Notes under the pieces: model-generated
What the model saw: the letters and a program-made list of their open reading frames with translations, nothing else
Told to the model about the DNA's origin: nothing
Database searches by the model: none
NCBI RefSeq assembly: GCF_035953295.1
Contig: NZ_CP108370.1
Location: 2,232,001 to 2,296,000, forward strand
Length of the DNA: 64,000 nt
Reading direction: 5' to 3'
Source: Streptomyces sp. NBC_01335
GTDB lineage: Bacteria; Actinomycetota; Actinomycetes; Streptomycetales; Streptomycetaceae
Shown here: one piece after another, positions 32,384-46,993 of the stretch
Layout: each line of letters begins with the position of its first letter
Position numbering within the stretch: position 1 is the stretch's first letter
Translations under genes and position numbers: made by a program

Positions 32384-34141
32384 ATGGCAGGGCTCCGCCT
32401 GGGACCGCTGCTTCGGTACGTGGACCACTCGTCCGGGACCACCGCCACCGTCTGGGTGGAGGCCGACCGGCCGTGCACGGTCACGGTGCGCTGCGAGGAC
32501 GGGGCGTCCGGAAGCTCGCCGACGTTCGCCGTGTCCGGCCACCACTACGCCCTCGTGGTCGTCGACGGGCTGACCCCGGGCACGACCACCGCGTACGAGG
32601 TACTGATCGGCGAACGGAGCGTGTGGCCGCCGGCCGGCTCACCGTTCCCACCCAGCACGATCACCGCCCCGGAACCCGCCGACCGGGCCCCGCGGGCCCC
32701 GTTGCGCGTCGCCTTCGGATCCTGCCGGTGGGCGGCTCCGCCCGGTGGCGGCAGCCCCTTCGCGGCGGGCTCTCCACTGCGACCGCAGGGCGACGACCCC
32801 ATCGGCCCGGACGCACTCGACGCCCTCGCCGCCCGGCTGGCGACCGACCCCACCGCCGTACGCCCGGACGTCCTGCTGCTCCTCGGCGACCAGATCTACG
32901 CGGACGAGACCTCCGGGGCCACCCAGCGATGGATCGCCGGGCGGCGCGACCTGAGGGAACCGCCGGGACCCGAGGTCGCGGACTACGAGGAGTACACCCA
33001 CCTCTACGACGAGTCGTGGCGCGATCCCGAGGTGCGCTGGCTGCTCTCCACCGTCCCCAGCTGCATGATCTTCGACGACCACGACGTCGTCGACGACTGG
33101 AACACCAGCGCATCGTGGCGGACGGACATGCGGGCCACCTCCTGGTGGCACGAGCGGATCGTCAGCGGGCTGATGTCGTACTGGGTCTACCAGCACCTCG
33201 GCAACCTCTCCCCCGCCGAGCTGGAGTCCGACCCCCTGTACGCGGAGATACGTTCCGCCGCGGACGGCACCGAGGCGCTGCGCAGGTTCGCGGCCACCGC
33301 CGACGCGGACCCCTCCGGGGTTCGCTGGAGCTACCGGCGCGACTTCGGCCGGGTGCGGGTCCTGGTGGTGGACAGCCGCGCCGCCCGGGTCCTCGGCGAG
33401 CAGCACCGGGCGATGCTCGACCCCGGGGAGGCGCAATGGGTCCGCGAGGCGGCGCTGGACGCGCCGGGTTCGTACGACCACCTTCTGATCGGGACCTCGC
33501 TGCCGTGGCTGCTCCCGCCTCTGATCCACGACGCGGAGGCGTGGGACGCGGCGCTCTGCCGGGGTGTGCGGGGTGGGCCGGACGGCCGCTGGGCCCGGTT
33601 CGGCGAGAAGCTGCGCCGCGCGGCGGACCTGGAGCACTGGGCCGCGTTCCCCGAGTCGTTCCGGGAGCTGACGGACCTGGTACGGGAGGCGGGCGGTGGT
33701 CCGGGGGCCCCGGCGACCGTGTGTGTGCTCTCCGGCGATGTGCACCATGCGTACGTCGCCGAGCCCCGGTGGGCCACGGGTGGGCCGGAGGCCAGGGTGT
33801 TCCAGCTGACCTGCTCGCCCGTCCACAACTCGATTCCGGCCCTGATGAGGGTCGGCTTCCGGTTCGGCTGGAGCCGGGCCGGGACGTGGCTGGGCTCGTT
33901 GCTGGCCCGGCACGGGCGTACCGCCGAACCGCCGGTGCGGTGGCGGCGGTCCGGCGGCCCCTGGTTCGGGAACCAGCTGATGACGCTCACCCTGACCGGC
34001 CGGAGCGCGCGGCTGGATCTGGTGCGGGCGAGAGAGACGGGGGATACGGCGGAGCCCAGGGAATCGAGGGAATCCGCACCTCCCACCGGCGGCGTCCGAC
34101 TGGAAACAGTCATGGAACGTTCGCTCACCGAGGGGGTGTAG
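32384..34141 (+). CDS. PhoD-like metallophosphatase (alkaline phosphatase D family)
   Basis: ATG 32384 with GAGGAGGG upstream; about 585 residues. An N-terminal fibronectin-like domain (residues 1-100, YVDHSSGTTATVWVEA) is followed by the metallophosphatase core: VAFGSCRW, VLLLLGDQIYADETSG, MIFDDHDVVDDWN, VLVVDSRAARVLG and LSGDVHHAYVAE supply the metal ligands. No signal peptide or Tat motif is evident, unlike classic secreted PhoD, so it may be intracellular. Regular repeats lie just upstream. Confidence 0.88.
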   Translation: MAGLRLGPLLRYVDHSSGTTATVWVEADRPCTVTVRCEDGASGSSPTFAVSGHHYALVVVDGLTPGTTTAYEVLIGERSVWPPAGSPFPPSTITAPEPADRAPRAPLRVAFGSCRWAAPPGGGSPFAAGSPLRPQGDDPIGPDALDALAARLATDPTAVRPDVLLLLGDQIYADETSGATQRWIAGRRDLREPPGPEVADYEEYTHLYDESWRDPEVRWLLSTVPSCMIFDDHDVVDDWNTSASWRTDMRATSWWHERIVSGLMSYWVYQHLGNLSPAELESDPLYAEIRSAADGTEALRRFAATADADPSGVRWSYRRDFGRVRVLVVDSRAARVLGEQHRAMLDPGEAQWVREAALDAPGSYDHLLIGTSLPWLLPPLIHDAEAWDAALCRGVRGGPDGRWARFGEKLRRAADLEHWAAFPESFRELTDLVREAGGGPGAPATVCVLSGDVHHAYVAEPRWATGGPEARVFQLTCSPVHNSIPALMRVGFRFGWSRAGTWLGSLLARHGRTAEPPVRWRRSGGPWFGNQLMTLTLTGRSARLDLVRARETGDTAEPRESRESAPPTGGVRLETVMERSLTEGV

Positions 34142-34361
34142 CCCCTTTTCGGCCACCCCCGGATCCTCCCTCCCGGCCCCCCGCGCCGGCCCCGGCACGG
34201 CGGCCGGCCGCAGCCCGCCCGTCGGTGCACGTGAGCTGGACAACACCGCACTCCCCCGACTACGTACGGGTGAAGCGCAGGCGTACGCTGTACAGCTGGC
34301 CCTGCCGCTCCTGCCGCTCCCCTGCGACGTCGCGGCGTTGATACGAACCGGGGAGTAGGAC

Positions 34362-35054
34362 GTGTTTGAGAGTGTGGGTGCGCTGACAAGCAGCCCATGG
34401 GTCTACCTCGTGGTGGGCCTCTCGGTGCTCCTGGACGTGTTCCTCCCCGTCCTCCCCAGCGGTGTCCTGGTGATCACCGCGGCCACCGCCGCCGCCGCGG
34501 GTTCGACCACGGTCGCGGGTGCTCCCGGCGCGGCGACCCACGCGGCGCCGTCCCTGTTCTTCCTCGCACTGAGCGCGGCGGCCGCCTCCGTCCTCGGCGA
34601 CCTCGTCGCGTACCGCCTCGCCTGGCGCGGCGGCGAACGGCTGGACCGCGCCATCGCCCGGTCCCGGCGCCTCACCTCGGCGCAGGAGCGTCTGGGTGCG
34701 GCGCTCAACCGCGGCGGCGGCGCGCTCGTCGTGATCGCGCGGTTCGCCCCGGCGGGCCGGTCCGTGGTCTCGCTCGGCGCGGGCGCGGCGCACCGCAAGG
34801 TCAAGGAGTTCCTGCCCTGGTCGGCCGTGGCGGGTGTCGCCTGGGCCGGTTACAGCGTCGGGCTGGGTTACTTCGGCGGCCAGTGGCTGGGCGCGACCTG
34901 GTTCGGCACGGCCATCTCCGTACTCGCGCTCTTCGTCGCGGGCGGCCTGGCGGCGTTCGTGATGCGCCGCCCGGCGGCTGCGGCCCAGCAGGCGCTGGCC
35001 GAGGCGGCTGCCTCGGCCGCCCCGGCTCCCGCCGGTCTCACCCCGGCCCCCTGA
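34362..35054 (+). CDS. DedA-family membrane protein
   Basis: GTG 34362 with GGGGAGTAGGA upstream; 230 residues. DedA/SNARE-associated pattern: VYLVVGLSVLLDVFLPVLPS, then FLALSAAAASVLGDLVAYRL, the basic glycine-rich loop, VVIARFAPAGRSVVSLGAGA (with the conserved Arg-Phe-x-P-x-G-R), and KVKEFLPWSAVAGVAWAGYS. DedA proteins are half-flippase membrane proteins implicated in undecaprenyl-phosphate recycling or membrane homeostasis. Confidence 0.9.
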   Translation: MFESVGALTSSPWVYLVVGLSVLLDVFLPVLPSGVLVITAATAAAAGSTTVAGAPGAATHAAPSLFFLALSAAAASVLGDLVAYRLAWRGGERLDRAIARSRRLTSAQERLGAALNRGGGALVVIARFAPAGRSVVSLGAGAAHRKVKEFLPWSAVAGVAWAGYSVGLGYFGGQWLGATWFGTAISVLALFVAGGLAAFVMRRPAAAAQQALAEAAASAAPAPAGLTPAP

Positions 35055-35121
35055 GCGACCCGTCGGCCGCCCCCTCAGCCGTACGCAGAACGCACACGCG
35101 CGGACACGGCCGTACGCGCCC

Positions 35122-35352
35122 TCAGCCGTGCGCGGCCGTGTGGGCGCCCCGCACCTCCAAGCCGTCGAGAAGCCGGTGCGTGGCGGCCGTGATCTCCTCC
35201 ACGGCCCGGTCGAACACCTCCTGGTTGTGCGCGGCGGGGGCACGGAAGCCGGACACCTTGCGTACGAACTGCAGGGCGGCGGCTCTCATGTCCTCTTCGG
35301 TGGCCTCCTCGGGGAGGGCCGGCGGTCGGAGCGTCTTGATACTGCGGCACAT
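35122..35352 (-). CDS. DUF2277 small protein
   Basis: ATG 35352; 76 residues beginning MCRSIKTLRPPALPEEATEE, then DMRAAALQFVRKVSGFRAPA, which is the DUF2277 family pattern (MCRNIk-LRp ... AALQYVRKVSG). The function is unknown. It runs alone on the minus strand; the much longer open frame to 35814 is a shadow of the next gene. Confidence 0.9.
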   Translation of the reverse strand: MCRSIKTLRPPALPEEATEEDMRAAALQFVRKVSGFRAPAAHNQEVFDRAVEEITAATHRLLDGLEVRGAHTAAHG

Positions 35353-35441
35353 GACTCCAGTGTGACCCCGACCACTGACATCCGGCCCGGACCGGGTCAC
35401 TCGCCCCGGTGAGCGCGACCGCGCCGCCCGGCGTGCGGCTC

Positions 35442-35942
35442 TCAGATCACCGCGCCCCGCCGGTCCGTGCACAGGGCCCAGATGACCACCGCGTCGATGC
35501 CGATGGAGATGAGGGCGGTGAGGGGCGCGTAGGGCAGCCAGAGGAAGTTCGCGATCAGGTTGATGGCGGCGAGCGCCACGCCCGCCCCGCGCGCCCAGCC
35601 GGCGCCTTTGAGGATGAACCAGCCGACGATGACGAGGATCACCCCGAGTGCCAGGTGGATCCAGCCCCACGCGGTCAGGTCGAACTTGAAGACGTAGTGG
35701 TTGATGCGTGCGAAGACGTCGTCGGTGGCGATGCCCGAGACGCCCTTGAGGATGCCGAGCACACCGTCCACGAGCAGCAGTACGCCCGCGAACATCGTTC
35801 CCGCCGCGGCCCACTGCCCGCCCGACTGCGGGCTCCTCCCGCCCCCGCCCGGTTCACGGCCGGGCCCGCCGGTGCGCCCCGGTCCCCCCGTCCCGTCCGT
35901 CGTCTCCCGCGCTCCTCCGGGGGTGGATGCCGACTGCGTCAT
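35442..35942 (-). CDS. DUF7144-like four-helix membrane protein
   Basis: ATG 35942 after a GGAG-containing leader; 166 residues. Gly/Pro-rich cytoplasmic N-terminus of about 45 residues, then four helices: AAGTMFAGVLLLVDGVLGIL, LTAWGWIHLALGVILVIVGW, GVALAAINLIANFLWLPYAP, ALISIGIDAVVIWALC. The W-x-W-I-H-L-x-L-G pattern after helix 1 is typical of this actinobacterial family of unknown function. Confidence 0.85.
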   Translation of the reverse strand: MTQSASTPGGARETTDGTGGPGRTGGPGREPGGGGRSPQSGGQWAAAGTMFAGVLLLVDGVLGILKGVSGIATDDVFARINHYVFKFDLTAWGWIHLALGVILVIVGWFILKGAGWARGAGVALAAINLIANFLWLPYAPLTALISIGIDAVVIWALCTDRRGAVI

Positions 35943-36069
35943 GAACACTCCTTCGTGCGACGGAACGCGGTGAACGTACGGAAGCCGCACCGCGGTACGG
36001 GATCAGAGAGGCGGAGGGGAGAGCACAGGGCCCCGGGCGTCCGGGTCGGAGTGTGGCGACGCGTCCGGG

Positions 36070-36417
36070 TCAGGGCGTGGCGACGACGGTGACGACGTGA
36101 CCCTGCGCGTCCACGGTCAGAACGGCCCGCTCGACCTTGTTGACCAGGGCCAGCGCCAGCCAGACCGGGCCCCAGAGGAAGCAGGTGAACACCGTCAGGA
36201 AGGCGTGCAGCACGTGGTTGACGGGCTGCCCGCGGACGAGGACGGCCTGCGCGCCGGAGCGCGATTCCACCCGCCATCCGTCGGCGATCCGCTGCGTGAC
36301 GGCCCAGTCGAGGATGAGGCTGCGCTGCGTGTCGTCCGGCGGTACGGCGTGCGGGGTGTAGTAGCCGGGAGGCGGCTCGATCGACGTCCGCGCCCGCGGA
36401 GTGCGGTGGGGCTTCAC
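36070..36417 (-). CDS. Small membrane-associated hypothetical protein
   Basis: 115 residues. A polar N-terminal half (PPGYYTPHAVPPDDTQRSLI) precedes DWAVTQRIADGWRVESRSGAQAVLVRGQPVNHVLHAFLTVF, one or two membrane helices (FLTVFTCFLWGPVWLALALV) and a conserved tail VDAQGHVVTVVATP. This resembles a recurring actinobacterial small protein of unknown role. Starts four bases after the stop of the gene upstream, so they share a transcript. Confidence 0.8.
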   Translation of the reverse strand: MKPHRTPRARTSIEPPPGYYTPHAVPPDDTQRSLILDWAVTQRIADGWRVESRSGAQAVLVRGQPVNHVLHAFLTVFTCFLWGPVWLALALVNKVERAVLTVDAQGHVVTVVATP

Positions 36418-36421
36418 GGGC

Positions 36422-36637
36422 TCACCTCCAGGTGTCGAGGTCTCCGCCTCGCCACTCGATCAGGTCGGGCTGATCAAGGTCGGCTCCCTCCCCGTCCGGT
36501 ACGAGTCCCGCCGTACGGAGAAGTGCGGCCACCTCTCCCCGGCCGTGGGCCAGCCCCACGATCCGCCCGTGCACCGTCACCCTCCGCGCACCGTTGGACG
36601 ACGGCGGGAAGACGATCACGGGCGGGTGTACAGCCAT
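36422..36637 (-). CDS. Small hypothetical protein
   Basis: ATG 36637; 71 residues (MAVHPPVIVFPPSSNGARRV ... GRIVGLAHGRGEVAALLRTA ... DLIEWRGGDLDTWR). A compact alpha/beta small protein of a kind common in Streptomyces, with no named family that I recognise. First of a two-gene unit with the membrane protein at 36070-36417. Confidence 0.7.
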   Translation of the reverse strand: MAVHPPVIVFPPSSNGARRVTVHGRIVGLAHGRGEVAALLRTAGLVPDGEGADLDQPDLIEWRGGDLDTWR

Positions 36638-36835
36638 GCGTCTACGGTGCCCCGCACGCGCCGGGAGCGCATCCCGGGGGCGACGGACGCGCAGAACGCG
36701 TCGTATGGGGTCGAACACGTCGGCTCGTGGGACAGGCCGGGCACGGGGACGCGAACGGTGAGAGGGAGGCCGGCTCGGATCGAAATGGCCTTCGACGGTG
36801 AGGCGGCGGGACCGGGACGGCGGGGGCGCCGCCGG

Positions 36836-37015
36836 TCAGGCCGCCTCCGCCATGTCCGCGTGCATCGCGGACGCCCATTCGACCAGCAGACGCTGATACG
36901 TCGCTTCGTCCTCCGGCGACAGCCGTCCGCCCGAACACTGCCACAGTGCGCGGATGTCCGCGTTCACCGCGTCAGGTGAGCGCACGGGGGCAGGCGCCGG
37001 AGGAAAAGTGGACAT
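36836..37015 (-). CDS. 59-residue hypothetical protein
   Basis: ATG 37015, stop TGA at 36836. The product begins MSTFPPAPAPVRSPDAVNAD, has a helical core IRALWQCSGGRLSPEDEATY, and ends QRLLVEWASAMHADMAEAA. Coding character is good (GC-rich third positions, amphipathic helices), so I accept it although it is short. Its start is 10 bp from the stop of the flavoprotein gene on the same strand, so the two are probably co-transcribed. Function unknown. Confidence 0.7.
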   Translation of the reverse strand: MSTFPPAPAPVRSPDAVNADIRALWQCSGGRLSPEDEATYQRLLVEWASAMHADMAEAA

Positions 37016-37024
37016 GCGTACAGA

Positions 37025-37567
37025 TTACGGCGCCGAACTGACAACCGAGTCCACGGTATCGAGCGCCGATGTCCACGGAAACTCCTCGGGTCTCCCCTCG
37101 CCCGGCCGGTTCGGCTCGAATCCGCCGGGCCCGAAGAGCACGTTCACGCCCGCCTCGCGGAGAGTCTCCAAAGACCGTCCGAACTGCGGATGTCGCACGT
37201 AGGCGGCGTTTGCGCACGGCATGGCCACGATCGGTATGTCCTTGCCGGAGCCCTCGGCGACCACTCCGACGACGAAGGTCGAAGTGATGCCGAGCGCCCA
37301 TTGGTTGAGCGTGTTGAAGGTGGCCGGCGCGACGAGAATCACATCCGCCGGGGGCCATACGTCCGGATCACCGGGCATCTTGTACTCGGAGCGCACCGGA
37401 TGCCCGGTCGCCTCCTCCAGTGCGGGCAGTTGGGGTGCCAGCCATCGCGCGGCCGTCGGCGTGAGGCCCAGGCAGACGTCCCAGCCGCGCGCCTGCACAT
37501 TTCTCACTACACGTAATACGTCGAACACCGGAGGGGCAGCAGAACAGAACAGGTACAGAGTCGTCAT
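37025..37567 (-). CDS. Flavoprotein, HFCD (phosphopantothenoylcysteine decarboxylase-like) family, copy 1
   Basis: ATG 37567; 180 residues. Rossmann-like flavodoxin fold: TTLYLFCSAAPPVFD at strand 1, VQARGWDVCLGLTPTAARWL, ADVILVAPATFNTLNQWALG (FMN-binding Ser/Thr-Asn region) and VAMPCANAAYVRHPQF in place of the P-x-M-N motif of true Cys decarboxylases. HFCD enzymes oxidatively decarboxylate peptidyl or pantothenoyl cysteine, but the substrate motif is changed here, so the reaction is open. Divergent from an XRE-TPR regulator; paralogous to 40334-40882. Confidence 0.88.
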   Translation of the reverse strand: MTTLYLFCSAAPPVFDVLRVVRNVQARGWDVCLGLTPTAARWLAPQLPALEEATGHPVRSEYKMPGDPDVWPPADVILVAPATFNTLNQWALGITSTFVVGVVAEGSGKDIPIVAMPCANAAYVRHPQFGRSLETLREAGVNVLFGPGGFEPNRPGEGRPEEFPWTSALDTVDSVVSSAP

Positions 37568-37574
37568 GCAGGCC

Positions 37575-37626
37575 ATACCACCCCGCACTCCTCCCCGGAT
37601 GCAAACGCCCCCGGAACGGGTGGTAT
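37575..37626. promoter_or_regulatory. Inverted repeat in divergent promoter
   Basis: ataccaccc (37575-37583) and its exact reverse complement gggtggtat (37618-37626) are 34 bp apart in the 132-bp gap between flavoprotein copy 1 and the XRE-TPR gene. They could be paired operator half-sites that govern both genes. Confidence 0.5.
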
Positions 37627-37699
37627 CGCTACCGATGACACCCGCGCCCACAGTGAGCGCGGGTACGTTCCCGGTGACTCGTGTAGAAACGGAGAACGC

Positions 37700-38884
37700 A
37701 TGCCCAGCCAGGTCGGCGAGCACACCGGCACCCGCATCAAGGAACAGCGCAGGCTGGCCAGATTGACGCAACGTCAACTCGCCGCCCGGCTGCCCTACTC
37801 GTACAGCCTGCTGAACCAGGTCGAGTGCGGAGCCAAACCGGCGAACCTCGACTTCGTGGCGGCGGTGGCACAGGTGTTGCGGATCGACGTGTCGGTGCTG
37901 ACGGGGCAGCCGTACGTCACCGAGCTCCAGCAGGACCGGCTGACCGAGTTGATAAGGCCCATCCGCGAGGCGCTCGACCTGTACGACCTGGGCGGCGACG
38001 ACACGATTCCCGAACGTTCCCCCGAGCAACTGGTCGAGGCCGCGCAGCACCTCTGCGTACTGGTCCGGGCCACGCATCTGCGCAACGCGGCACGGATGTT
38101 GCCGTCCGTCATCACCGAACTGACCACCGCCGCCTGGCGTTCGGGGTCCTCGGAGCTGTGGCGGGCGCTCGCCTCCACCTACCGTACGGCGCACGACGTC
38201 AGCGTGAAGCTCGGCTACTACGACCTGTCCGCGGTGGCGCTGGACCGGATGGACTGGGCGGCCCGGCGCGCCTCCGACCCGTGCCTGTCGGCGATCCGCC
38301 AGTACATGCGGGCGCTGGTGTACTTCCGGGAGGGCGAGTACCGGATCGGGCAGCGGCTGATCACCTCGGGCCACCAGATCATGTGCGCCGCCGGGGAGGA
38401 CCGGGAGGCGCTGGCCGTACGCGGCCAACTCCACCTCGGCGCCTCGGTGATCGCCGCGCGCGCGGAGCAGCAGACCGAGGTGGACGACCACATCGCGGAG
38501 GCCACCCGCTGCGCGGCGGTCACGGGCGAGGCGACCCGGATCCACTGGCTCTCCTTCGGCCCGACCAACGTGGCGATGCACCGCATGTCGGCGGCGATCG
38601 AGATGCGGCAGTACGACGACGCCCTCACCCAGTCCCACAGCATCAAACTGCCGGCCGGGCTGGCCACTTCGCGGCGCGCGCACTTCCTCATCGACCGGGC
38701 GCGCTGCGAGATGGAGACGGGCCACACCGAAGCGGCCCTGGGCTCCCTCGCCGACGCCCGGCACGCCGCCCCGGAGCAGACCCGCTACCACCCGGGCGCC
38801 CGTGAGACGATCAAGGGCCTGGTGCACCTCTCGCGCCGCACCCCGGATTCCCTGGGCCACATGGCCACCTGGATCGGCCTCTGA
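37700..38884 (+). CDS. XRE-family regulator with TPR-like C-terminus, copy 1
   Basis: 394 residues from ATG 37700. HTH_3 domain at about residues 10-66 (RIKEQRRLARLTQRQLAARL, NQVECGAKPANLDFVAAVAQ). The rest is alpha-helical with TPR-like repeats (YRTAHDVSVKLGYYDLSAVA, YFREGEYRIGQRLITSGHQI, ALTQSHSIKLPAGLATSRRA) and the motif WLSFGPTNVAMHRM shared with copy 2. TPR regions in such regulators often bind peptides, as in RRNPP proteins. It is divergent from a flavoprotein and followed by a 20-bp palindrome and a CxxC small-protein gene. Confidence 0.88.
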   Translation: MPSQVGEHTGTRIKEQRRLARLTQRQLAARLPYSYSLLNQVECGAKPANLDFVAAVAQVLRIDVSVLTGQPYVTELQQDRLTELIRPIREALDLYDLGGDDTIPERSPEQLVEAAQHLCVLVRATHLRNAARMLPSVITELTTAAWRSGSSELWRALASTYRTAHDVSVKLGYYDLSAVALDRMDWAARRASDPCLSAIRQYMRALVYFREGEYRIGQRLITSGHQIMCAAGEDREALAVRGQLHLGASVIAARAEQQTEVDDHIAEATRCAAVTGEATRIHWLSFGPTNVAMHRMSAAIEMRQYDDALTQSHSIKLPAGLATSRRAHFLIDRARCEMETGHTEAALGSLADARHAAPEQTRYHPGARETIKGLVHLSRRTPDSLGHMATWIGL

Positions 38885-38985
38885 GCCCCCGGCCCGGCCC
38901 CGGGCCCCGAATCGGACCCGGACTCGGCCCCGGACCCGGCCCCGGACCCGGACTCGGCCCGGGGCTCTGCCCCGGCCCCCTCCGG
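38885..38985 (+). repeat. Low-complexity cggacc/cggccc repeats with a weak hairpin
   Basis: About 100 bp made of near-repeats of ggacccggactcggcccc. The 3' end forms a short hairpin at 38959-38975 (ccggggc, tct, gccccgg) that may terminate the regulator transcript. Confidence 0.6.
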
Positions 38986-39003
38986 TCACTGCCCGTATGA
39001 GCA

Positions 39004-39023
39004 CGCTCACAGATCTGTGAGCG
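39004..39023. promoter_or_regulatory. Perfect 20-bp palindrome upstream of CxxC gene 1
   Basis: cgctcacagatctgtgagcg is a perfect 20-bp palindrome 60 bp before the start of the small CxxC gene and after the XRE-TPR gene. Its position and symmetry suit a homodimeric regulator, most simply the adjacent XRE-TPR protein. Confidence 0.65.
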
Positions 39024-39083
39024 TTGTGGCCCCCGCGCCCCGGCATGCTGACGACATCTGATCCATGACGACACGGGGATGCC

Positions 39084-39305
39084 ATGACTGTGAGGAACCT
39101 GCCGCCGGTATCCGAGCTGACCGAACAACAACAGCGAGGCTGGTCGTGCGTCTGGTGCGCGGCCCCCTTGTCGACGGGCACCGCCATCAACCTCGGCGAA
39201 CAACGCCACGAGCCCGCCTTCGGCTCGCCCTACTGGTGGTTCCCCCGCGCCTGCCCCGACGCCCGCGCCTGCGCGAAGCGCGAGGCCGGCGGCGACCGCC
39301 GCTGA
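39084..39305 (+). CDS. Small CxxC protein, copy 1
   Basis: 73 residues. MTVRNLPPVSELTEQQQRGW, then SCVWCAAPLSTGTAINLGEQ, and a second Cys pair (RACPDARACA). The CVWCAAPL knuckle with a later Cys pair suggests a zinc ribbon. Clearly paralogous to the product of 42197-42394 (MTV-NLP-V-LSE/TE-QQRG, CVWCAAPL, WFPR-C). Its function is unknown. The palindrome upstream suggests tight control by the neighbouring regulator. Confidence 0.8.
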   Translation: MTVRNLPPVSELTEQQQRGWSCVWCAAPLSTGTAINLGEQRHEPAFGSPYWWFPRACPDARACAKREAGGDRR

Positions 39306-39377
39306 GCGGCCCCGCACGGGCCGGGACGCCCCCCACGCCCCGGCCCCCGCCTCCCCCTCGGCTCCCCTCGCCGCCCC

Positions 39378-39554
39378 TCACCGCTGCTTGCGCAGCCTCC
39401 GCAACGCCGCCCTCGCCTGGGCCTGCTTGCGCCGCGCCACCCCGTACGGCGACCACGCCCCCTGGTGCAGGTGACACCGCGAGGTCCCCGTCATCGCCTC
39501 TTTCGCACACCGGGTCCTGCGCTGTGTCAGGGCCCCGCATCTGATCCGCGCCAT
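39378..39554 (-). CDS. 58-residue phage-type CxAxT...CxxH small protein
   Basis: ATG 39554, stop TGA 39378. Begins MARIRCGALTQRRTRCAKEA and continues MTGTSRCHLHQGAWSPYGVA, then a basic helix (RRKQAQARAALRRLRKQR). The pattern C-x-A-x-T-x-x-x-x-x-C-(9)-C-x-x-H-x-G is typical of short zinc-finger-like proteins found in prophages and mobile elements. It is isolated on the minus strand after the CxxC gene and may be a remnant of transferred DNA. Confidence 0.65.
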   Translation of the reverse strand: MARIRCGALTQRRTRCAKEAMTGTSRCHLHQGAWSPYGVARRKQAQARAALRRLRKQR

Positions 39555-39888
39555 CCGTACCCACCCTCTCGTCGTCCCACGATCACCGTCACCCCCGCTT
39601 GCCGTCGCGCCCGTACCGCCCCGTGATCAGGCTCCCCCGTACCTCCAACGGTGCCCGAGGCAACTGCCCCGGCGGCAGGCGCACATGCCACCGGCAGAGG
39701 CGCGCCCGCTCACTCCCGGAGCGCTGGGGGCGCAGTGGGTTGCGCGGGTGAGATTCGGCGTACGCGCCCCCGGGCGGCCCGGTCCGGTACGGCGGCAGCA
39801 GCAGCAGCAGCCGAACCCATAGCTGGCCTGGTGGGTTCGGCGAGTACGTGGGCGCGTGCGCGGAGAACGTCCGCCTCGTCCTGGTGGC
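39555..39888. other. Gap without recognisable gene
   Basis: About 330 bp in which no frame shows convincing coding character on either strand. Open frames here are Ala/Arg-rich shadows. No hairpin or repeat stands out. Possibly decayed accessory DNA. Confidence 0.4.
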
Positions 39889-40233
39889 CTACGCCTGCTC
39901 CATGGACCTGGCGGTCGATCCGTCAGTCCTGTGACGGCCTAGCCAGCGGTCGTCCTGGAACTCGGCAGGGACTTCGTCCTCCCACGGATCGATCCCGCGG
40001 CGTTCCATTTCGTCGAACCATCGGTCCCGCTGTGACTCGGGAAGGCGTCGTCCGCACCAGGGGCAGAAGTCGATGGTGATGCCCGATGTGCCGCCGTCAT
40101 GGATGATCAGCCCGTACTCCTGGAACTCGGCACGGAATTCGATCAGCGCGTCCGGGCAGTCGTAAGGGTCGTCGTGCTGGTCGCAGCGCACGTTCACGCG
40201 GCGGTCCATCTCTTCGCAGCAGTGGTGGGTCAT
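39889..40233 (-). CDS. DUF6980-like protein
   Basis: ATG 40233; 114 residues. MTHHCCEEMDRRVNVRCDQH, then DDPYDCPDALIEFRAEFQEY, GLIIHDGGTSGITIDFCPWC with a CxxC knuckle, and GRRLPESQRDRWFDEMERRG. This matches the small DUF6980 family found across bacteria, usually as lone genes; the paired Cys suggest a bound metal. Its ATG overlaps the stop of a 25-codon open frame just upstream. The acidic tail (WEDEVPAEFQDDRWLG) is typical. Confidence 0.82.
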   Translation of the reverse strand: MTHHCCEEMDRRVNVRCDQHDDPYDCPDALIEFRAEFQEYGLIIHDGGTSGITIDFCPWCGRRLPESQRDRWFDEMERRGIDPWEDEVPAEFQDDRWLGRHRTDGSTARSMEQA

Positions 40234-40307
40234 GACGCCTTGTCGATCTCGGCGAACTGGGCGCGGGGCACGCGAAGGCGCGCGACACAAGGTTGCAGAT
40301 CGGGCAT
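40230..40307 (-). CDS. Possible 25-residue peptide coupled to the DUF6980 gene
   Basis: ATG 40307 to TGA 40230, overlapping the DUF6980 start as ATGA. The product would be MPDLQPCVARLRVPRAQFAE followed by IDKAS. It could be a leader peptide, a true small peptide, or a relic of a longer protein; the only support is the clean start and the stop/start overlap. Confidence 0.3.
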   Translation of the reverse strand: MPDLQPCVARLRVPRAQFAEIDKAS

Positions 40308-40333
40308 GGGTTCGAGTCTATGGCAGTAAGGGA

Positions 40334-40882
40334 TTACGGGGCGGGGCTGACAAGGTCGCCGACTACGTCCAAGGCCCGATGCCACGGGAACGACGCCGGA
40401 TCTCCCTGCTTCGGGTAGTGCGACTCGTATCCGTCGGGGCCGTCGAGGAAGACCACGCCCTGGGCGCGGAGATCCGCAACGCTCCGGGCCACAGCCGGCT
40501 GGGCCCCCTGCGCGCGGTTGAAGTACGGCATCGCGGCAACCGGCACGCCAAGGTGAACGCCTTCGGACGCCAGTCCCAGAGCGACCGTGTCGGCGATGCC
40601 CGCCCCCCACTTGTTGAGGCTGGTACACGACAGCGGGGCGACGAGCATGGCGTCCGCCTTCGGCAACGCGTCGCTCTCGCCCGGCAGTTTGTACTGCGAC
40701 CGGACCCGGTGACCGGTCAGAGTTTCGAGCTCGCCGAGGCGCAATTCCCACCAGCGTGCCGCCGACGGGGTCAGGATCAAGCAGACGTCCCAGCCGCGTG
40801 CCTGCGCCTGTCGCACCCCCTCGTCGATGTACTCGGTGGGGCCGGCAGCGCAGGCAATGAGGTACAGAACTCGCTTCGTCAT
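40334..40882 (-). CDS. Flavoprotein, HFCD family, copy 2
   Basis: ATG 40882, overlapping the stop of the XRE-TPR gene by four bases; 182 residues. Same fold as 37025-37567 with long shared stretches: ARGWDVCLILTPSAARWW, LTGHRVRSQYKLPGESDA, ADAMLVAPLSCTSLNKWGAG, PVAAMPYFNRAQGAQP and DPASFPWHRALD. The Asn of the P-x-M-N-type segment is kept (PYFN) but the Met is not. Binds FMN by inference. Here the gene is downstream of, and coupled to, its regulator, whereas copy 1 is divergent from its own. Confidence 0.88.
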   Translation of the reverse strand: MTKRVLYLIACAAGPTEYIDEGVRQAQARGWDVCLILTPSAARWWELRLGELETLTGHRVRSQYKLPGESDALPKADAMLVAPLSCTSLNKWGAGIADTVALGLASEGVHLGVPVAAMPYFNRAQGAQPAVARSVADLRAQGVVFLDGPDGYESHYPKQGDPASFPWHRALDVVGDLVSPAP

Positions 40883-42093
40883 GCGGGGAGTCCACATCGT
40901 GCGGCCAGCGCACGCAACTCCCCGCTGGGGACGGCCGTTGCGCCGACGACATCCTTCACCAGGGCCACGGTGTTCGGCCTGCCCTTGAACTCCTCGGGCG
41001 CTAGCCGGGAGGCCGCAACGAGCGACTCTGCAGCGGCCTCCTTCTTCCGCGTCAAGAGCTGAGCGCGTGCCTTCGTGATGAGATACCCGGCCCGGCGCTC
41101 GTGCGCCAAGCCCTGCACGGCCCTGTCATCCATGGACTCGGCAGCCTCAAGCGCCGACCACCCATCCTCGAATCGGGCCAGGACATCGATCCGGTGCAGG
41201 CTCACGTTCGTCGGTCCGAAGGCTGTCCAGTCGGCATTGAGGTCGGCGCCCTGCTGGTCGGCGGCCTCTGCCGCCTGGTCGACATACTCGACGGCGTCGC
41301 GGACGCCGGCAGTCGTCCGCTCCATCGCGGACGCCGAGATCGCGGCGGACAGATACAGCATGCCGAGCGTCGACAGCCCGAGCGGGCCGACCGCAGCCAG
41401 GTCGCCGTGGAGGCGTCGCGCGGCCCCCATGGCGAAGTCGACGGCCGCACGCGGCTGCTGCTGGTAGGTGAGGGACTTCGCCACCCGACGGGAGGCCGCC
41501 CCGATCGCGACCGCGTCCCCGGACCGTTCCGCCGCGGCGAGGGCACGGTCGGCGACAACGGCCGCCTGAACCGCGGTTGAGGCCCCGTACTTGTGGAGGA
41601 AGCTCGTGGCCAGCTGCAGGACGCGGGAGAGAACAACGTGTGCCTCGCTCGCCTCGGTGCTGGCACGGGTCGCCGACTGCTGCGCCATCACCAAGAGCAG
41701 AGGCAGGTCGCGGCCGAGCGCCCCGTAGTGGCAGGCCTGAAACGCCTCGCAGCAGAAGGCGAGGCGGCGCCTCAGCTCCGTCAGCGGCAGCAGTTCCTCG
41801 ACGCCGCCGTCGGGCCGGTACAGCACCTCGATGACCGCGGCGGCCTCCGGCGGCGGGACCGGCGACGAGACCGGGCCGACAGGGGAGTCCATCAAGAGTT
41901 GCCCAACAGGGATGCGCAGCACCTCGGCAGCGCGCACCAGAACCGAAAGGCGAGGATCCTGCTGGCGCTGGCCACCCTCCAGATCCTGCACCCATCTCCG
42001 GGTCTGCCCCATCAGTCGGCCGAAGTCGACCTGCGTGAAACCTCGCCGGTCCCGCCAGTAGGCGATGCGCCGGCCGATGCGCCCAGTCTCCAT
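40879..42093 (-). CDS. XRE-family regulator with TPR-like C-terminus, copy 2
   Basis: 404 residues from ATG 42093. HTH at about residues 8-60 (RIAYWRDRRGFTQVDFGRLM, RRWVQDLEGGQRQQDPRLSV). The helical C-terminal half has TPR-like pairs (AVQAAVVADRALAAAERSGD, YQQQPRAAVDFAMGAARRLH) and WTAFGPTNVSLHRIDVLARF, the same signature as WLSFGPTNVAMHRM in copy 1. Overlaps the flavoprotein start (ATGA), so both are made together. A perfect palindrome lies 17 bp upstream of its ATG. Confidence 0.88.
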   Translation of the reverse strand: METGRIGRRIAYWRDRRGFTQVDFGRLMGQTRRWVQDLEGGQRQQDPRLSVLVRAAEVLRIPVGQLLMDSPVGPVSSPVPPPEAAAVIEVLYRPDGGVEELLPLTELRRRLAFCCEAFQACHYGALGRDLPLLLVMAQQSATRASTEASEAHVVLSRVLQLATSFLHKYGASTAVQAAVVADRALAAAERSGDAVAIGAASRRVAKSLTYQQQPRAAVDFAMGAARRLHGDLAAVGPLGLSTLGMLYLSAAISASAMERTTAGVRDAVEYVDQAAEAADQQGADLNADWTAFGPTNVSLHRIDVLARFEDGWSALEAAESMDDRAVQGLAHERRAGYLITKARAQLLTRKKEAAAESLVAASRLAPEEFKGRPNTVALVKDVVGATAVPSGELRALAARCGLPA

Positions 42094-42109
42094 GGAGGCC
42101 CCCGATCAA

Positions 42110-42128
42110 GGCACGCAAAGTGCGTGCC
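42110..42128. promoter_or_regulatory. Perfect 8-3-8 palindrome in divergent promoter
   Basis: ggcacgca / aag / tgcgtgcc is a perfect inverted repeat between the divergent XRE-TPR copy 2 and CxxC copy 2 genes. It is a likely operator for the XRE regulator, allowing autoregulation and control of the small-protein operon. Confidence 0.65.
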
Positions 42129-42196
42129 CGCCACCGTTGTACCGCGTCCTACGGTGCAGTCACAGCCGATCGTCAACACCCCCGGGGGCACCAACC

Positions 42197-42394
42197 ATGA
42201 CAGTGGAAAACCTGCCGCAAGTCGGCACGCTGTCGGAGACGCAGCAGCGCGGGGCCAACTGCGTCTGGTGCGCGGCGCCCTTGCCCCCCGGCGACGCTCA
42301 CGACCTCGGGCCACGCCCGGACCCCGGGTACGGGGGCGCCGTCACCTGGTTCCCGCGCTGCTGCCTCACCTGCTGGGAAGGACGGACACGATGA
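42197..42394 (+). CDS. Small CxxC protein, copy 2
   Basis: 65 residues: MTVENLPQVGTLSETQQRGA, then NCVWCAAPLPPGDAHDLG, closing with TWFPRCCLTCWEGRTR, which supplies a second CxxC. The two knuckles fit a four-Cys zinc ribbon. Paralogue of 39084-39305. First of three small genes joined by ATGA overlaps. Confidence 0.8.
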   Translation: MTVENLPQVGTLSETQQRGANCVWCAAPLPPGDAHDLGPRPDPGYGGAVTWFPRCCLTCWEGRTR

Positions 42395-42537
42395 GCACCA
42401 CCGAGAAACCGCTCACCGCCGGAGACCGCGCGTACCGCGTGTGGATCATTCACACCGAGCAGTGCGCCACCTGTCGAGCGGGCCGCGCCTGCACCACCGC
42501 CGTGAGGCTCGGCCGGGCGTGGAGGGCCGTCCGATGA
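42391..42537 (+). CDS. 48-residue Cys-containing small protein
   Basis: ATG 42391 overlaps the preceding stop (ATGA), and its own stop overlaps the next ATG. The product reads MSTTEKPLTAGDRAYRVWII, then HTEQCATCRAGRACTTAVRL and GRAWRAVR, with C-x-x-C-x5-C. It is accepted because of the double translational coupling and the good amphipathic helix before the Cys cluster. Function unknown; possibly metal-binding. Confidence 0.7.
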   Translation: MSTTEKPLTAGDRAYRVWIIHTEQCATCRAGRACTTAVRLGRAWRAVR

Positions 42538-42752
42538 CCTTCCCCCGGTACTGCGTCGACTGCGACCGCACGATCACCGGCAACGCCATCGTCGTCGCCG
42601 AGGGGCACTCCGCCTCCGGTGCCCGCCCGGACGCGTACGCACATCCTCCGGGCGACCCTGCGTGCGCGGTTCGGCGGGCGTCACCGAGCATGCTGCACCA
42701 ACAGCTCGTCGCGATGCCGCCGTTGTCCACCCGCGTTGATGTCACTGACTGA
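42534..42752 (+). CDS. Small CxxC protein (DUF-like)
   Basis: ATG 42534 overlaps the upstream stop; 72 residues. MTFPRYCVDCDRTITGNAIV has a CxxC knuckle, followed by VAEGHSASGARPDAYAHPPG and DPACAVRRASPSMLHQQLVA. Last gene of the three-gene small-protein string. Similar short Cys-containing Streptomyces proteins are often seen beside XRE regulators; no function is established. Confidence 0.72.
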   Translation: MTFPRYCVDCDRTITGNAIVVAEGHSASGARPDAYAHPPGDPACAVRRASPSMLHQQLVAMPPLSTRVDVTD

Positions 42753-42754
42753 TG

Positions 42755-42961
42755 TCAGCCGCCGAAGAGCTCCGGGTGCGGGCAGGGCTCCGGGGCTTCC
42801 TCCGGCCGGTCGGCCCACTGCCACCAGACGTGTCGCTGCGGACAACCCCATACGCCGCGACAGACTCGCTTCCCGTCGTCCTCACGCCGGCAAAGCGCGA
42901 ACGCCCTGAACCGCATCGGTTGGCCACAATCGGGACATGCGGGCGGAGAGTCGGGCGGCAT
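42755..42961 (-). CDS. Small zinc-ribbon-like protein
   Basis: ATG 42961 gives 68 residues: MPPDSPPACPDCGQPMRFRA, FALCRREDDGKRVCRGVWGC, then PQRHVWWQWADRPEEAPEPC. CPDCG and C...C...C-P-x-R-H supply a likely metal-binding set. It converges on the CxxC operon with two bases between stops. Function unknown. Confidence 0.7.
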   Translation of the reverse strand: MPPDSPPACPDCGQPMRFRAFALCRREDDGKRVCRGVWGCPQRHVWWQWADRPEEAPEPCPHPELFGG

Positions 42962-43042
42962 GAGCGGACCGTACTCCGTCGACCCGCTTCCCCGCACGGT
43001 CACCCTCTGATCCGTCTCTGATCCGTAGCGCCAGTGGATGCC

Positions 43043-43075
43043 GAAGGCCCCCAATATGATCGGTTGGGGGCCTTC
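43043..43075 (-). terminator. Terminator of the tRNA-Val gene
   Basis: A perfect 12-bp inverted repeat (43043-43054 and 43064-43075) with a 9-nt loop, eight bases past the 3' end of the tRNA on the minus strand. Confidence 0.8.
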
Positions 43076-43082
43076 TTCGTGC

Positions 43083-43157
43083 TGGTGGGCGCGGACGGTT
43101 TCGAACCGCCGACATCTGCTTTGTAAGAGCAGCGCTCTACCCCTGAGCTACGCACCC
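43083..43157 (-). tRNA. tRNA-Val (anticodon TAC)
   Basis: Read on the minus strand, the 75-nt sequence folds into a full cloverleaf: acceptor gggtgcg/cgcgccc, D arm gctc...gagc, anticodon stem ctgct/agcag with loop cttacaa (anticodon TAC, for GUA codons), T arm ggcgg-ttcgaaa-ccgtc (one mismatch) and an encoded 3' CCA. It bounds the small-gene region to its left and is a potential integration site for mobile elements. Confidence 0.95.
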
Positions 43158-43451
43158 GTGGACGAAGGAACAGCGTACATGGCGTCCGGCCCCGGCTCAC
43201 ACTCAGATTCCCCGCAGCCGCAGGTCCGGGCCACGGGGCCCGCCTCCCGGCCGCCACGGCGCCGCCCCCGAACCGCCACCGAAGCGCTCCCAAGACCGTC
43301 CGATGCCGTCGGATACGGGGGTTACCCCCACCCCGAAGCCGGTGGGCGGCCTCATCGTGGGTGACGGCCGGGCTGCATAACGTGAAGGTGGCCGGGGGAA
43401 CTGCCCCGGTGAGTACGTCACCGCACCGCGCAAATCTGGGGGACCGATCCC

Positions 43452-44303
43452 GTGGACAGCACCAACGGCACGCCGCACGCCCGCGATACCGCCCACCGAT
43501 TCACGACCGGCGCCGCCCGTCGGCTCGACACCCGCATCACCCGCACCACCCGCACCGCGCTCCTGGCCTCCGCCGGGGCGCTCCTCGTAACGGTGGCGGT
43601 CAGCGGCTGCGCGGGCTCGGACGTGGACGGGGCGCCCGTCGAGCACAAGTCGTTCGCGCTCCGGGGGAAGACGTTGACCATCGACTCCTCGAACACCTCG
43701 CTGGAGCTCGTACCAGCCGATGTGGACCAGGTGGAGGTGGAGCGGCAGACGGACGGGTGGGTGGTGTTCGGGTCCGGGCCCGATCCGGTCTGGAAGATGG
43801 AGGACGGCACCCTGACGCTGAAGGTGAAGTGCACGGGCGTGGTCAACAACTGCTCCGGCCGGCACCGGGTGAAGGTGCCGCGCGGGGTGGCCGTGAAGGC
43901 GTCGGGGAGCAACGGGAAGGTGACGGCGTCCGGGTTCGACACCCGGCTGGAGTTGTCCTCCGACAACGGCGGCGTGGTGGTGCGGGACGCCGGGGGCGAG
44001 CTGAAGTTGTCGAGCGACAACGGTTCGATCGACGCCAAGGGGCTCTCGGGCCCGTCCGTCGTGGTCGGTTCGGACAACGGGACGATCCGGCTCGGCTTCG
44101 ACGCGGCACCGGACCTGCTGGACGTGGACACGGACAACGGCGGTACCCGCATCGAGCTGCCCGGGGGCGGGACCGCGTACGCCGTCGACGCGAAGGCGCA
44201 CAACGGGCACGTCTCCGTGGACGTACCGCGCAGCGACGCCAGCCCGCACGTGGTGAAGGTCCGCAGCGACAACGGGGAAGTCAGCCTCCGAACCGTGAAC
44301 TAA
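43452..44303 (+). CDS. DUF4097 beta-repeat lipoprotein
   Basis: GTG 43452; 283 residues. Basic N-terminus and hydrophobic LLASAGALLVTVAVSGC with a lipobox Cys, so it should be a surface lipoprotein. The rest is a DUF4097-type beta helix: repeating turns LSSDNGGVVV, LSSDNGSIDA, GSDNGTIRLG, DTDNGGTRIE, RSDNGEVSLR. Such proteins are often adhesin-like or linked to envelope stress; the role is unknown. Confidence 0.87.
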   Translation: MDSTNGTPHARDTAHRFTTGAARRLDTRITRTTRTALLASAGALLVTVAVSGCAGSDVDGAPVEHKSFALRGKTLTIDSSNTSLELVPADVDQVEVERQTDGWVVFGSGPDPVWKMEDGTLTLKVKCTGVVNNCSGRHRVKVPRGVAVKASGSNGKVTASGFDTRLELSSDNGGVVVRDAGGELKLSSDNGSIDAKGLSGPSVVVGSDNGTIRLGFDAAPDLLDVDTDNGGTRIELPGGGTAYAVDAKAHNGHVSVDVPRSDASPHVVKVRSDNGEVSLRTVN

Positions 44304-44373
44304 CCGGCCCGGGTATTCGTCATGTCTGGTGGGAGAATGGACCGGGCAGAGGCGAATGGCACGGGAGAGGCAT

Positions 44374-45798
44374 GTGACGGCGACAGACGCGCGGCCGCAG
44401 GTGAGAGGGCACGCCCCCGAGGGCCCGGCCGCCGCCGTCCCGACCCCGGCGAGCCGTACCCCGCGGGCGTTCCGGGACGTCGTGGCGCTGGTGCTGCTGC
44501 CGCTCCCGCTGCTCGTGGCCGCGCTGCCCGCGGCCTTCGCCGGGGGCGGTACGCGCCGTTGGTTCGGCGGGCGGGACGGGGGCAGCCGGCGGGCGGACGC
44601 GCAGGCGGCGAAGGACGCCGCCGCGGAGGCTTTCTACGAGCTGGACAGCGCGCAGCGCGATCTGGAGATCTCGATCGAGACCATCACGGCCGTCGACAGT
44701 TCCCCGCGCGCCCGGCAGGCCGTCGAGGAGTTCGCCGCGCTGGGGCGCCGTATCGACGAGGTCAGCCACACCTACATCACCGCGGTCGACGCGCACGACC
44801 TGGACCGGGACGGTCTTGAGCCGTCCGTCGCGGCCCGGGCCACGACGGAGCTGACCCAGGCCAAGGACGCGCTCGTACGGGTCAAGGGCGAGCTCGACCG
44901 GTACGCGCAGGGGCTCGGCCCCCTCCTCGGCAGCGCCGAGACGCAGCTCGCCCGGCTGGCTCCGGCCGTGGAGCGGGCGCGGCAGGCGCTGATCGGGGCC
45001 ACCGGCGCACTGGACGGCGTACGCGCCTCCGGCTTGAAGGCCGACGACCTCGCGGCCCGGCTCGCCGCCCTCGCCCCCGAGCTGACCAGGCTCAACCAGG
45101 GTGCGGGGCGTCATGGCGTCGCCGGGACGCTGGAACGTGCCGATCAGGTGCTCCGCGAGGCGCAGGCCATTCGCACCGAGGCCGAGCGGCTGCCGGAGCG
45201 GGCCGCCGAGATCGACCGCAGGCTGGTGTCGCTGCGTACGCGTGCGCAGGCCCTGACCACCCGGGCGGGCGGGGTGGAGCCGATCCTCAGCGAGTTGCGG
45301 CGGCGGTTCTCCGAGGAGTGCTGGCAGGACCTCCAGCACGTTCCGGAGCAGGCGGCCGAGGACGTCCGCCGGGCCGAGGAGAAGCTCGCCGAGGCCGCTA
45401 CGGCCCGCAGGGACCAGAGCTGGGCCGACGCCACCGCCCGGCTGGGCACGGTCCGCGCGCTGCTCAACCACGCGGACGAGGCGGTGACGGCGGCCGGGGA
45501 GCGGCTGCGGCTGCTGGACGCGGTGGCGAAGGACCCGAAGCAGGAGATCGAACGGACCCGGTTCGTCGTCCGCGACGCCCAGCGGCTCGCGATGGCCGGC
45601 CGCAACACGCCCGATCCGCGTCACGCCGGGCCGCTGGACAACGCGGTGGCGCGGCTGGACCGTGCGATCGCCGCCCTCGACGTCCGCCACCCCGACTACT
45701 GGCACTTCCTGACCGAGGCGGAGGCCGTACGGCAGACGGCGGCCCAGGTCGTCTCGGCCATCCGCGAGGGGCTCGGTACGGGCTCGACCGCCACCTGA
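44374..45798 (+). CDS. Coiled-coil membrane protein of unknown function
   Basis: GTG 44374 with GGAGAGG upstream gives about 474 residues; ATG 44356 is an alternative. One N-terminal membrane helix ([21 protein letters not shown]) is followed by about 400 residues of almost pure alpha-helix with heptad-like Leu/Ala patterns ([56 protein letters not shown] segments). No TPM or other domain could be made out. It may be a cell-envelope scaffold. Confidence 0.75.
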
Positions 45799-45881
45799 GC
45801 CGAGCGCCCGAGCTGCCCTGCGGCCCTGCGGCCTCGGTCCTCGGTCCCCCAGTTGTCCCGCCGCGCTCCCGGGCAGATGCT

Positions 45882-45980
45882 GGAGGTGATCCGTGCGCCG
45901 GTGCGAACCTCCGCCAGGGAGAGGGACCGGTATGAACCTCCGTGGAGGTCCGTGCGCCGGTGCGTACCTCCCGAGGAGGT
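45882..45980 (+). promoter_or_regulatory. SD/anti-SD repeats in the leader of the DUF4383 gene
   Basis: ggaggt at 45882, 45944 and 45975 (the last is the ribosome site, four bases before the ATG) alternates with exact complements acctcc at 45907, 45936 and 45966. A 23-bp near-identical direct repeat (45890-45912, 45949-45971) is part of the pattern. The acctcc at 45966 can pair with the ribosome site over a 3-nt loop, or instead with the ggaggt at 45944. Confidence 0.55.
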
Positions 45981-45984
45981 CGCC

Positions 45985-46644: not shown

Positions 46645-46714
46645 CGGCGTGGACCGGCGGCCCGGACACCAGCTTGTCCGGCCGATGCCGCACGGGGCCC
46701 CCTGCTCTTGGTCC

Positions 46715-46936
46715 ATGCCTCGTTACGAGTACCGCTGCCGCACCTGCGGAGACACCTTCGAGCTCAGCCGTCCGATGGCCGAGTCCTCCGATCCCGCCAC
46801 GTGCCCCGTCGGCCACGACGACACCGTCAAGCTGCTCTCCGCCGTCGCCGTGGGCGGCACCTCGGGCTCCGGCTCCGCTCCTGCCCCGGCGGGCGGCGGA
46901 GGGGGCGGCTGCTGCGGTGGTGGCTGCTGCGGCTGA
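46715..46936 (+). CDS. FmdB-family zinc-ribbon protein
   Basis: ATG 46715; 73 residues starting MPRYEYRCRTCGDTFELSRP, the typical FmdB/CxxC-CxxC regulator-like fold (second pair replaced by ATCPVGHDD). The tail is Gly/Ser-rich and ends in GGGGGGCCGGGCCG, giving extra Cys pairs. The function of this widespread family is unsettled. Converges on the O-methyltransferase across a bidirectional hairpin. Confidence 0.9.
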   Translation: MPRYEYRCRTCGDTFELSRPMAESSDPATCPVGHDDTVKLLSAVAVGGTSGSGSAPAPAGGGGGGCCGGGCCG

Positions 46937-46948
46937 GACCCACAAGCC

Positions 46949-46989
46949 GTGCGGGACCGGAGCGCCGGGGAGGCCGCTCCGGCCCGCAC
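46949..46989. terminator. Bidirectional hairpin terminator
   Basis: Inverted repeat 46949-46964 / 46975-46989, paired throughout apart from one bulged base, with a 10-nt loop, between the convergent FmdB and O-methyltransferase stops. Confidence 0.75.
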
Positions 46990-46993
46990 GCGT

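Follow-up and report, generated by a model that had tools for sequence, protein, structure and literature searches.

Two gene sets beside a tRNA-Val gene

We examined a stretch of 64,000 nucleotides from Streptomyces sp. NBC_01335 (the window; C1:2232001-2296000 of a genome in four contigs, of which C1 measures 8.2 Mb) that carries two sets of three genes, each encoding a flavoprotein, a regulator with an XRE-type helix-turn-helix (HTH) and a TPR domain (XRE-TPR), and a small protein with a CxxC motif (CxxC protein). The six genes, proposed in an earlier note on this DNA, all have open reading frames at the coordinates of Table 1. Pfam places both flavoproteins in PF02441 (E 4.4e-11 and 1e-7, above the gathering score) and gave no match for the CxxC protein of either copy. 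The note's assignment of C-terminal TPRs to the regulators is borne out by Pfam TPR matches in some of 32 relatives and by an AlphaFold model. Two extra coupled small genes, S48 and S72, belong to copy 2 beyond the set originally listed, and relatives of both recur at other loci. A tRNA-Val gene lies just past the end of the interval that the note had covered.

Table 1. Genes, operator candidates and promoter elements of the two sets (positions in the window)
Feature	Position	Strand	Description
Flavoprotein, copy 1	37025..37567	-	180 aa, PF02441, divergent from XRE-TPR gene
XRE-TPR regulator, copy 1	37700..38884	+	394 aa, HTH_31 (Pfam), operator-class A clade
Class A operator candidate	39003..39024	no strand	perfect 22-bp palindrome ACGCTCACAGATCTGTGAGCGT
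-10-like hexamer CATGCT	39044..39049	+	offset 30 from palindrome centre; centre ~ -42.5
CxxC small protein, copy 1	39084..39305	+	73 aa
Flavoprotein, copy 2	40334..40882	-	182 aa, PF02441, 4-bp overlap (ATGA) with XRE-TPR gene
XRE-TPR regulator, copy 2	40879..42093	-	404 aa, HTH_31 (Pfam), class B clade
Class B operator candidate	42110..42128	no strand	palindrome GGCACGCAAAGTGCGTGCC, between divergent XRE-TPR and CxxC genes
-10-like hexamer TACGGT	42150..42155	+	offset 31 from palindrome centre; centre ~ -43
CxxC small protein, copy 2	42197..42394	+	65 aa
S48	42391..42537	+	48-aa Cys-containing protein, ATGA-coupled to CxxC; recurrent partner
S72	42534..42752	+	72-aa Cys-containing protein, coupled to S48; relative on phage contig C3
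tRNA-Val(TAC)	43083..43157	-	3' end faces the module; integration-type site common to other loci

The two sets are related, as the note had stated: BLASTP between the copies is far beyond chance for all three proteins, with identities of 49% over 177 aa for the flavoproteins, 28% over 294 aa for the regulators and 58% over 57 aa for the CxxC proteins. To call them a doubled module is nevertheless misleading. In a regulator tree of 78 rows the two copies fall in different clades, with highest identities to tree relatives of 82% (copy 1) and 77% (copy 2), and the flavoproteins are closer to outside relatives than to each other (up to 75% identity for copy 1 and 86% for copy 2 against 14 relatives). 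Contig C3 of the same genome encodes a CxxC protein to which that of copy 2 is 78% identical. Tandem duplication was rejected because the copies lie in separate regulator clades and separate flavoprotein subgroups. By these comparisons the two copies are two separate acquisitions, each closest to modules elsewhere.

Regulators and their operator candidates

A profile of the CxxC family (A1) found 63 places in 37 of 150 Streptomyces genomes. We fetched 59 of these genus neighbourhoods (the weak place G117:C1:4697710 was not fetched separately) and kept 57 once two repeats had been removed (L085 and L093, repeats of L079 and L091). A further 42 loci came from genome_contigs, all titled Streptomyces, and 41 from viral_contigs (IMG/VR). 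After removal of 16 near-duplicates, 124 distinct loci drawn from L046-L187 remained, a set that leaves out the window, C3 and plasmid loci. Neighbours were called with iterated profiles within 2.5 kb of the CxxC gene, and 40 random regions from genomes with CxxC served as control.

Regulators of the XRE-TPR type or of another type, XRE-DUF5753/DUF6879, were found near CxxC at 38/57 genus, 33/42 genome_contigs and 28/41 viral loci, against 2/40 control regions. Either type accompanies 87 of the 124 distinct loci: 37 loci have XRE-TPR, 18 XRE-TPR and a flavoprotein, 32 DUF5753/DUF6879 and 37 none of these. On C3, the CxxC gene is accompanied by an XRE-DUF5753/DUF6879 head, and Pfam confirmed DUF5753, DUF6879 and a small XRE protein there. 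The three genes had been seen as one kept set whose members should co-occur across genomes. Co-occurrence of CxxC and flavoprotein does exist, at 18/124 loci against 0/40 controls, so that the link is not chance, only optional; the trio itself is not conserved, with the flavoprotein near CxxC at only those 18 loci and the DUF5753/DUF6879 head as another companion. The claim that regulator and small protein belong together stands, given the recurrent neighbourhood and the operator candidate before the small gene, and the gene neighbourhoods thus identify the regulator as the kept link.

Upstream of CxxC, the best palindrome beat all 20 shuffles in 40/139 regions (6.6 expected), and the ten strongest were all at XRE-TPR loci. 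A perfect or near-perfect palindrome is found at 28 loci, 71-109 bp ahead of the point where the CxxC match starts. These palindromes fall into three classes of unrelated sequence, A (8 loci), B (11) and C (9), which were defined after seeing the shuffle results and include near relatives. A NANNNT hexamer stands at a single offset, 30 or 31 positions away from the centre of the palindrome, in 8/8, 11/11 and 9/9 loci; the next best offset holds it in only 1, 2 and 3 loci of classes A, B and C, and the chance of a hexamer at one given offset is 0.019. The 28 loci, one of which (L050) shows no full XRE-TPR gene nearby, were chosen without regard to the -10 spacing. With the start site assumed 7 bp after the hexamer, as in placing the palindrome centres, transcription of the two CxxC genes is predicted to start at ~39056 and ~42162. 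The -35 boxes are poor: the best TTGACA match at a spacing of 16-19 has 1-2 of 6 bases in 23/28 loci, 3 in 4 and 4 in 1. On the regulator tree, class A corresponds to one clade (14/14 rows, support 100/99), class B needs two changes and class C three.

The same arrangement occurs in front of other genes. From the listed places of the flavoprotein profile we picked 40 loci for lacking CxxC (the 28 best-scoring, and 12 weaker ones chosen by hand), so the absence of CxxC from them is by choice; 28 of them have a long XRE-TPR frame within 1.5 kb (22/28 better-scoring, 6/12 weaker). Class A or B sites are present in 10 of these 28 flavoprotein/XRE-TPR loci, and in each of the ten the hexamer is at offset 30-31, on one side or on both. 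The first operator scan of the flavoprotein loci required the -10 spacing; the repeat dropped that demand, relaxed the class A pattern and covered five offsets on both strands. The genes that follow a class A or B palindrome comprise one for a DUF6415 protein (L216), a frame with a resolvase domain (L203) and unnamed frames (L202, L206, L208-L211). Palindromes of other kinds, seen only when the -10 filter was applied, precede a gene for another DUF6415 protein (L200) and one for a histidine-kinase-like ATPase (L221). Because the flavoprotein/XRE-TPR pair faces other genes elsewhere, it looks like the stable unit, and CxxC like one of its outputs. A class B promoter on the regulator side was not counted, as its -10-like match falls on the first XRE-TPR codons.

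Within the genome, the 18-bp core of the copy-1 palindrome has no other site at up to 2 mismatches, and the copy-2 pattern has one site without mismatch. A global regulator is disfavoured on these counts, and the near-uniqueness of the sites makes the regulators look dedicated to their own modules.

The AlphaFold model of the copy-2 regulator (mean pLDDT 90.1, pTM 0.78) consists of an HTH followed by a helical repeat domain, and the FGPTNV motif common to both regulators begins at residue 292, next to the two strands that are the only ones in the model. Its fold matches are TPR proteins, among them PlcR:PapR:DNA (E 1e-3) and the Rap protein of phage phi105 (8e-3), and the HTH part is similar to ComR and PlcR. 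PlcR, ComR and Rap/AimR form the RRNPP-type group of HTH-TPR proteins. The window regulators share with RRNPP regulators the N-terminal XRE HTH and the TPR superhelix and differ from them in having no evident secreted pro-peptide gene and a flavoprotein partner instead; they are distant by fold and sequence. Among ten proteins searched with PADLOC, matches at E <= 0.01 were restricted to the HTH region of the regulators, and a defence system was rejected on this ground.

We consider it somewhat more probable than its alternatives together (about 0.55) that these genes form a mobile head, an XRE-TPR activator gated by a ligand and partnered by a flavoprotein, whose outputs can be swapped. The XRE-TPR protein, with its HTH and TPR superhelix, would be a sensor-activator whose dimer binds one dedicated palindrome, centred near -42 in the promoter that drives the adjoining small-protein operon. 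Engagement of the TPR domain by the right ligand or partner would allow contact with RNA polymerase and turn the operon on (class II activation), a mode favoured because the position at -42 is fixed in three operator classes and the -35 boxes are poor. Lambda CI at PRM is such a class II activator, an XRE-type HTH dimer at about -42 before a promoter with a poor -35. The arrangement predicted here resembles it in these respects and differs in that one operator appears dedicated to one output operon and that TPRs take the place of the CI C-terminal domain. In the window the output would be CxxC, to which copy 2 would add the small Cys-containing partners S48 and S72; elsewhere the same head would face other genes, and CxxC would also serve under another XRE head. 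The copy-2 palindrome is ~26 bp upstream of the start codon of its own regulator, so this regulator probably limits itself. A vague neighbourhood thereby becomes a testable circuit, with predicted operators, a start site and a target for each regulator.

Several observations weigh against this activation model. No recognised regulator lies within 2.5 kb at 37/124 CxxC loci, 43/78 rows of the regulator tree are "other", having no class A-C site nearby, and the XRE-DUF5753 loci show no strong shared palindrome. Many loci are related, and the counts are therefore not independent events. Taken alone, the copy-2 palindrome scores below the best shuffle (8.8 vs 11.2), so that its weight comes from recurrence and not from its own score, and 13 further sites in the genome match its pattern at 1-2 mismatches, compared with 8 for the reversed control pattern. 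For the TPR part, the TM-scores of the fold matches are low (0.20-0.44, by query length).

Finally, a dimer site over the -35 region could also repress, and repression is the main rival to activation. XRE proteins are commonly repressors. The regulator would then cover the -35 and silence the CxxC operon until a signal such as prophage induction, host stress or a ligand arrives, with CxxC a toxic or lytic-phase gene, as in the logic of phage immunity or toxin-antitoxin systems. The palindrome does overlap the -35 region of the predicted promoter, class B sites are close to the regulator's own start, and CxxC is found at provirus ends, often with a convergent small XRE gene. Yet a repressor needs no exact phasing, and a distance to the -10 that is constant across three unrelated classes fits contact activation better, as do the poor -35 matches; we regard repression as rather unlikely.

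The flavoprotein and the small proteins

Flavoproteins of this type are common in Streptomyces (134/150 genomes at E <= 1e-10 with a two-row profile), and the literature searches made listed no description of the XRE-TPR/flavoprotein head and no paper on it or on the CxxC family. Their resemblance to HFCD flavoproteins (CoaC/CoaBC, EpiD and the putative flavoprotein decarboxylase 6jls) lies in PF02441 and in weak similarity to the structures 7cfu, 6jls, 6tgv and 1g5q. In 7cfu, 6jls and 6tgv a His stands in the segment before the AD...AP motif; the His of that HFCD segment is catalytic. The window-type flavoproteins differ here, for a His is lacking from this segment (between the E69 and D77 columns) in 56/56 members, one of which (L215) has a His one column before it. 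HFCD-type decarboxylation of the small protein is not supported, because the flavoproteins lack this His segment.

The earlier note had called a system for modifying or sensing a Cys-rich small protein a reasonable idea; in one form of it the flavoprotein would oxidise or decarboxylate the CxxC protein and the XRE-TPR regulator would sense the product. The PF02441 fold fits this idea, as does the proximity of the genes in both window copies and at the 18 other loci already mentioned. However, CxxC is found without a flavoprotein within 2.5 kb at 106/124 loci, and 28 flavoprotein/XRE-TPR loci are without CxxC (they were picked so), ten of them with class A or B sites. With co-occurrence optional, the flavoprotein paired with XRE-TPR where CxxC is missing, and the segment His absent from every member, a point that His-independent chemistry would escape, we disfavour modification of the CxxC protein and consider it very improbable. 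The flavoprotein would most likely tune the regulator instead, as a flavin or metabolite sensor or as the maker of its ligand.

The copy-2 CxxC protein was modelled by AlphaFold with a mean pLDDT of 87.3 and a pTM of 0.75. Its four cysteine columns hold Cys in 68, 56, 63 and 61 of 69 sequences of a wider profile; in alignment A4, which is narrower and was built with a search pattern that required CxxC, the first three cysteines do not vary. Two zinc-ribbon Pfam models each match 1/52 CxxC members, weakly, and Pfam and PHROGs gave single weak matches only among these 52. NCBIfam and PADLOC returned no match for either window copy, and the copy-2 protein had no match among INPHARED phages, although IMG/VR gave 41 loci. 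On reading, neither window sequence has a hydrophobic N-terminus; a signal-peptide program was not used. The protein is read as a compact four-cysteine protein that probably binds metal. A diverged subgroup has no WFPR motif (L077 5693-5890, L084 6273-6464, L095 5693-5881, L103 and L104), and in L077, L084 and L095 the diverged gene adjoins a more typical CxxC gene.

Of the described systems that we met, the XRE-DUF397 pairs of Streptomyces (Scr1/Scr2; the WhiJ locus) come nearest; in them an XRE protein with a ligand-type C-terminal domain lies beside a small protein. DUF5753, the domain that partners DUF397 (PMC10364602), is also found in heads that accompany CxxC. The CxxC system differs in its Cys-containing family, which gave no DUF397 match at E <= 0.01 in 52/52 members, and in the XRE-TPR and flavoprotein head found in the window. 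As proposed for XRE-DUF397, regulator and small protein might be a toxin-antitoxin-like pair carried by mobile elements for maintenance, in which CxxC would be either the toxin or an antagonist of the regulator. In keeping with such a pair, CxxC occupies the position of the small protein beside XRE-DUF5753, and its location is mobile. Against it, XRE-TPR heads face unrelated genes elsewhere, the CxxC members are without DUF397, and the published XRE-DUF397 pairs are reported to regulate antibiotic production (PMC10364602). We judge this explanation improbable. In PMC10364602 the terms "palindrom" and "flavoprotein" occur 0 times each.

Attachment sites, proviruses and phage contig C3

The window module lies 3' of, and convergent to, the tRNA-Val gene. 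This location is frequent in the family: tRNA genes occur in 22/57 genus, 12/42 genome_contigs and 4/41 viral CxxC neighbourhoods, downstream and convergent in 18, 12 and 2 of them, respectively, and in 2/40 random regions, with at most 1 convergent. Judged by the right-hand flanking genes, the tRNA-Val site of the window holds CxxC in 11 other loci (L054, L062, L076, L081, L084, L091, L105, L108, L112, L132 and L141; L133 and L142 are repeats). Among same-genus relatives, the interval at this site is much shorter in G005, and in G006 (flavoprotein), G009 and G010 the same markers enclose related genes. By their tRNA location, the window copies are read as probable end modules of a prophage or integrative element; if such modules move with the attachment-site end of prophages and islands, this would account for two unrelated ones beside a single tRNA-Val gene.

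Viral contigs show the same placement. CxxC lies within 2 kb of a contig end in 27/41 (4.9 expected) and is nearer the end on its 3' side in 36/41. Contig C3 (34,477 bases; loci L008/L009) is a temperate phage by PHROGs, with which ten of its proteins were scanned; the matches were terminase, portal, head protease, major head, tape measure, endolysin, holin and integrase. It contains a 51-bp attP-like segment sharing 98% identity with the 3' region of a tRNA-Lys gene on the chromosome. The CxxC cassette is ~1 kb from this segment, and the integrase lies on its other side. No second att copy in the window was convincing. The 3' part of tRNA-Val has an 18-bp match at 61355-61372 that is no better than others genome-wide and was not called att. 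A search aimed at relatives of the C3 integrase alone found none in 33001-47000 at E <= 1e-5.

Because CxxC often marks the attachment end of proviruses in Streptomyces, its function may bear on lysogeny or on the benefit of a prophage to its host. A bolder generalisation, possible but tentative, is that Streptomyces mobile elements share a plug-and-play head, consisting of a ligand-gated XRE-TPR class II activator and a non-decarboxylase flavoprotein as co-sensor, in which the spacing of operator and promoter is fixed and operator sequence and output operon are swapped between elements; in prophages it might act as an arbitrium-like sensor of the state of host or population, driving a new family of small metal-binding effectors by the attachment site.

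The cassette has further recurrent companions and carriers. S48 or S72 relatives lie within 2.5 kb of CxxC at 32/57 genus, 25/42 genome_contigs and 26/41 viral loci, and a convergent small gene for an HTH-only XRE protein (~80 aa) recurs downstream of the cassette (L079 4868-5101, L127 6963-7202, L008 2603-2848 and others). On named plasmids, CxxC is present in 28 records and the copy-2 flavoprotein in 92, annotated modules among them. Repeats of tRNA 3' ends bound small cassette islands at L127 2219-7557 (5.3 kb) and L075 2742-7066 (4.3 kb), which hold little beyond one regulator-CxxC cassette. The gene-caller list, for which no domain search was made, shows no integrase in either island, so they may be mobilised in trans or decayed.

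Between the two modules of the window lie a DUF6980 gene (39889-40233, minus strand) and a 58-aa frame (39378-39554, minus strand), a relative of which adjoins CxxC in L083 (5925-6095). Directly 3' of the copy-1 regulator, the raw sequence shows tandem GGCCCCGG/ACCCGG-like repeats at 38885-38975.

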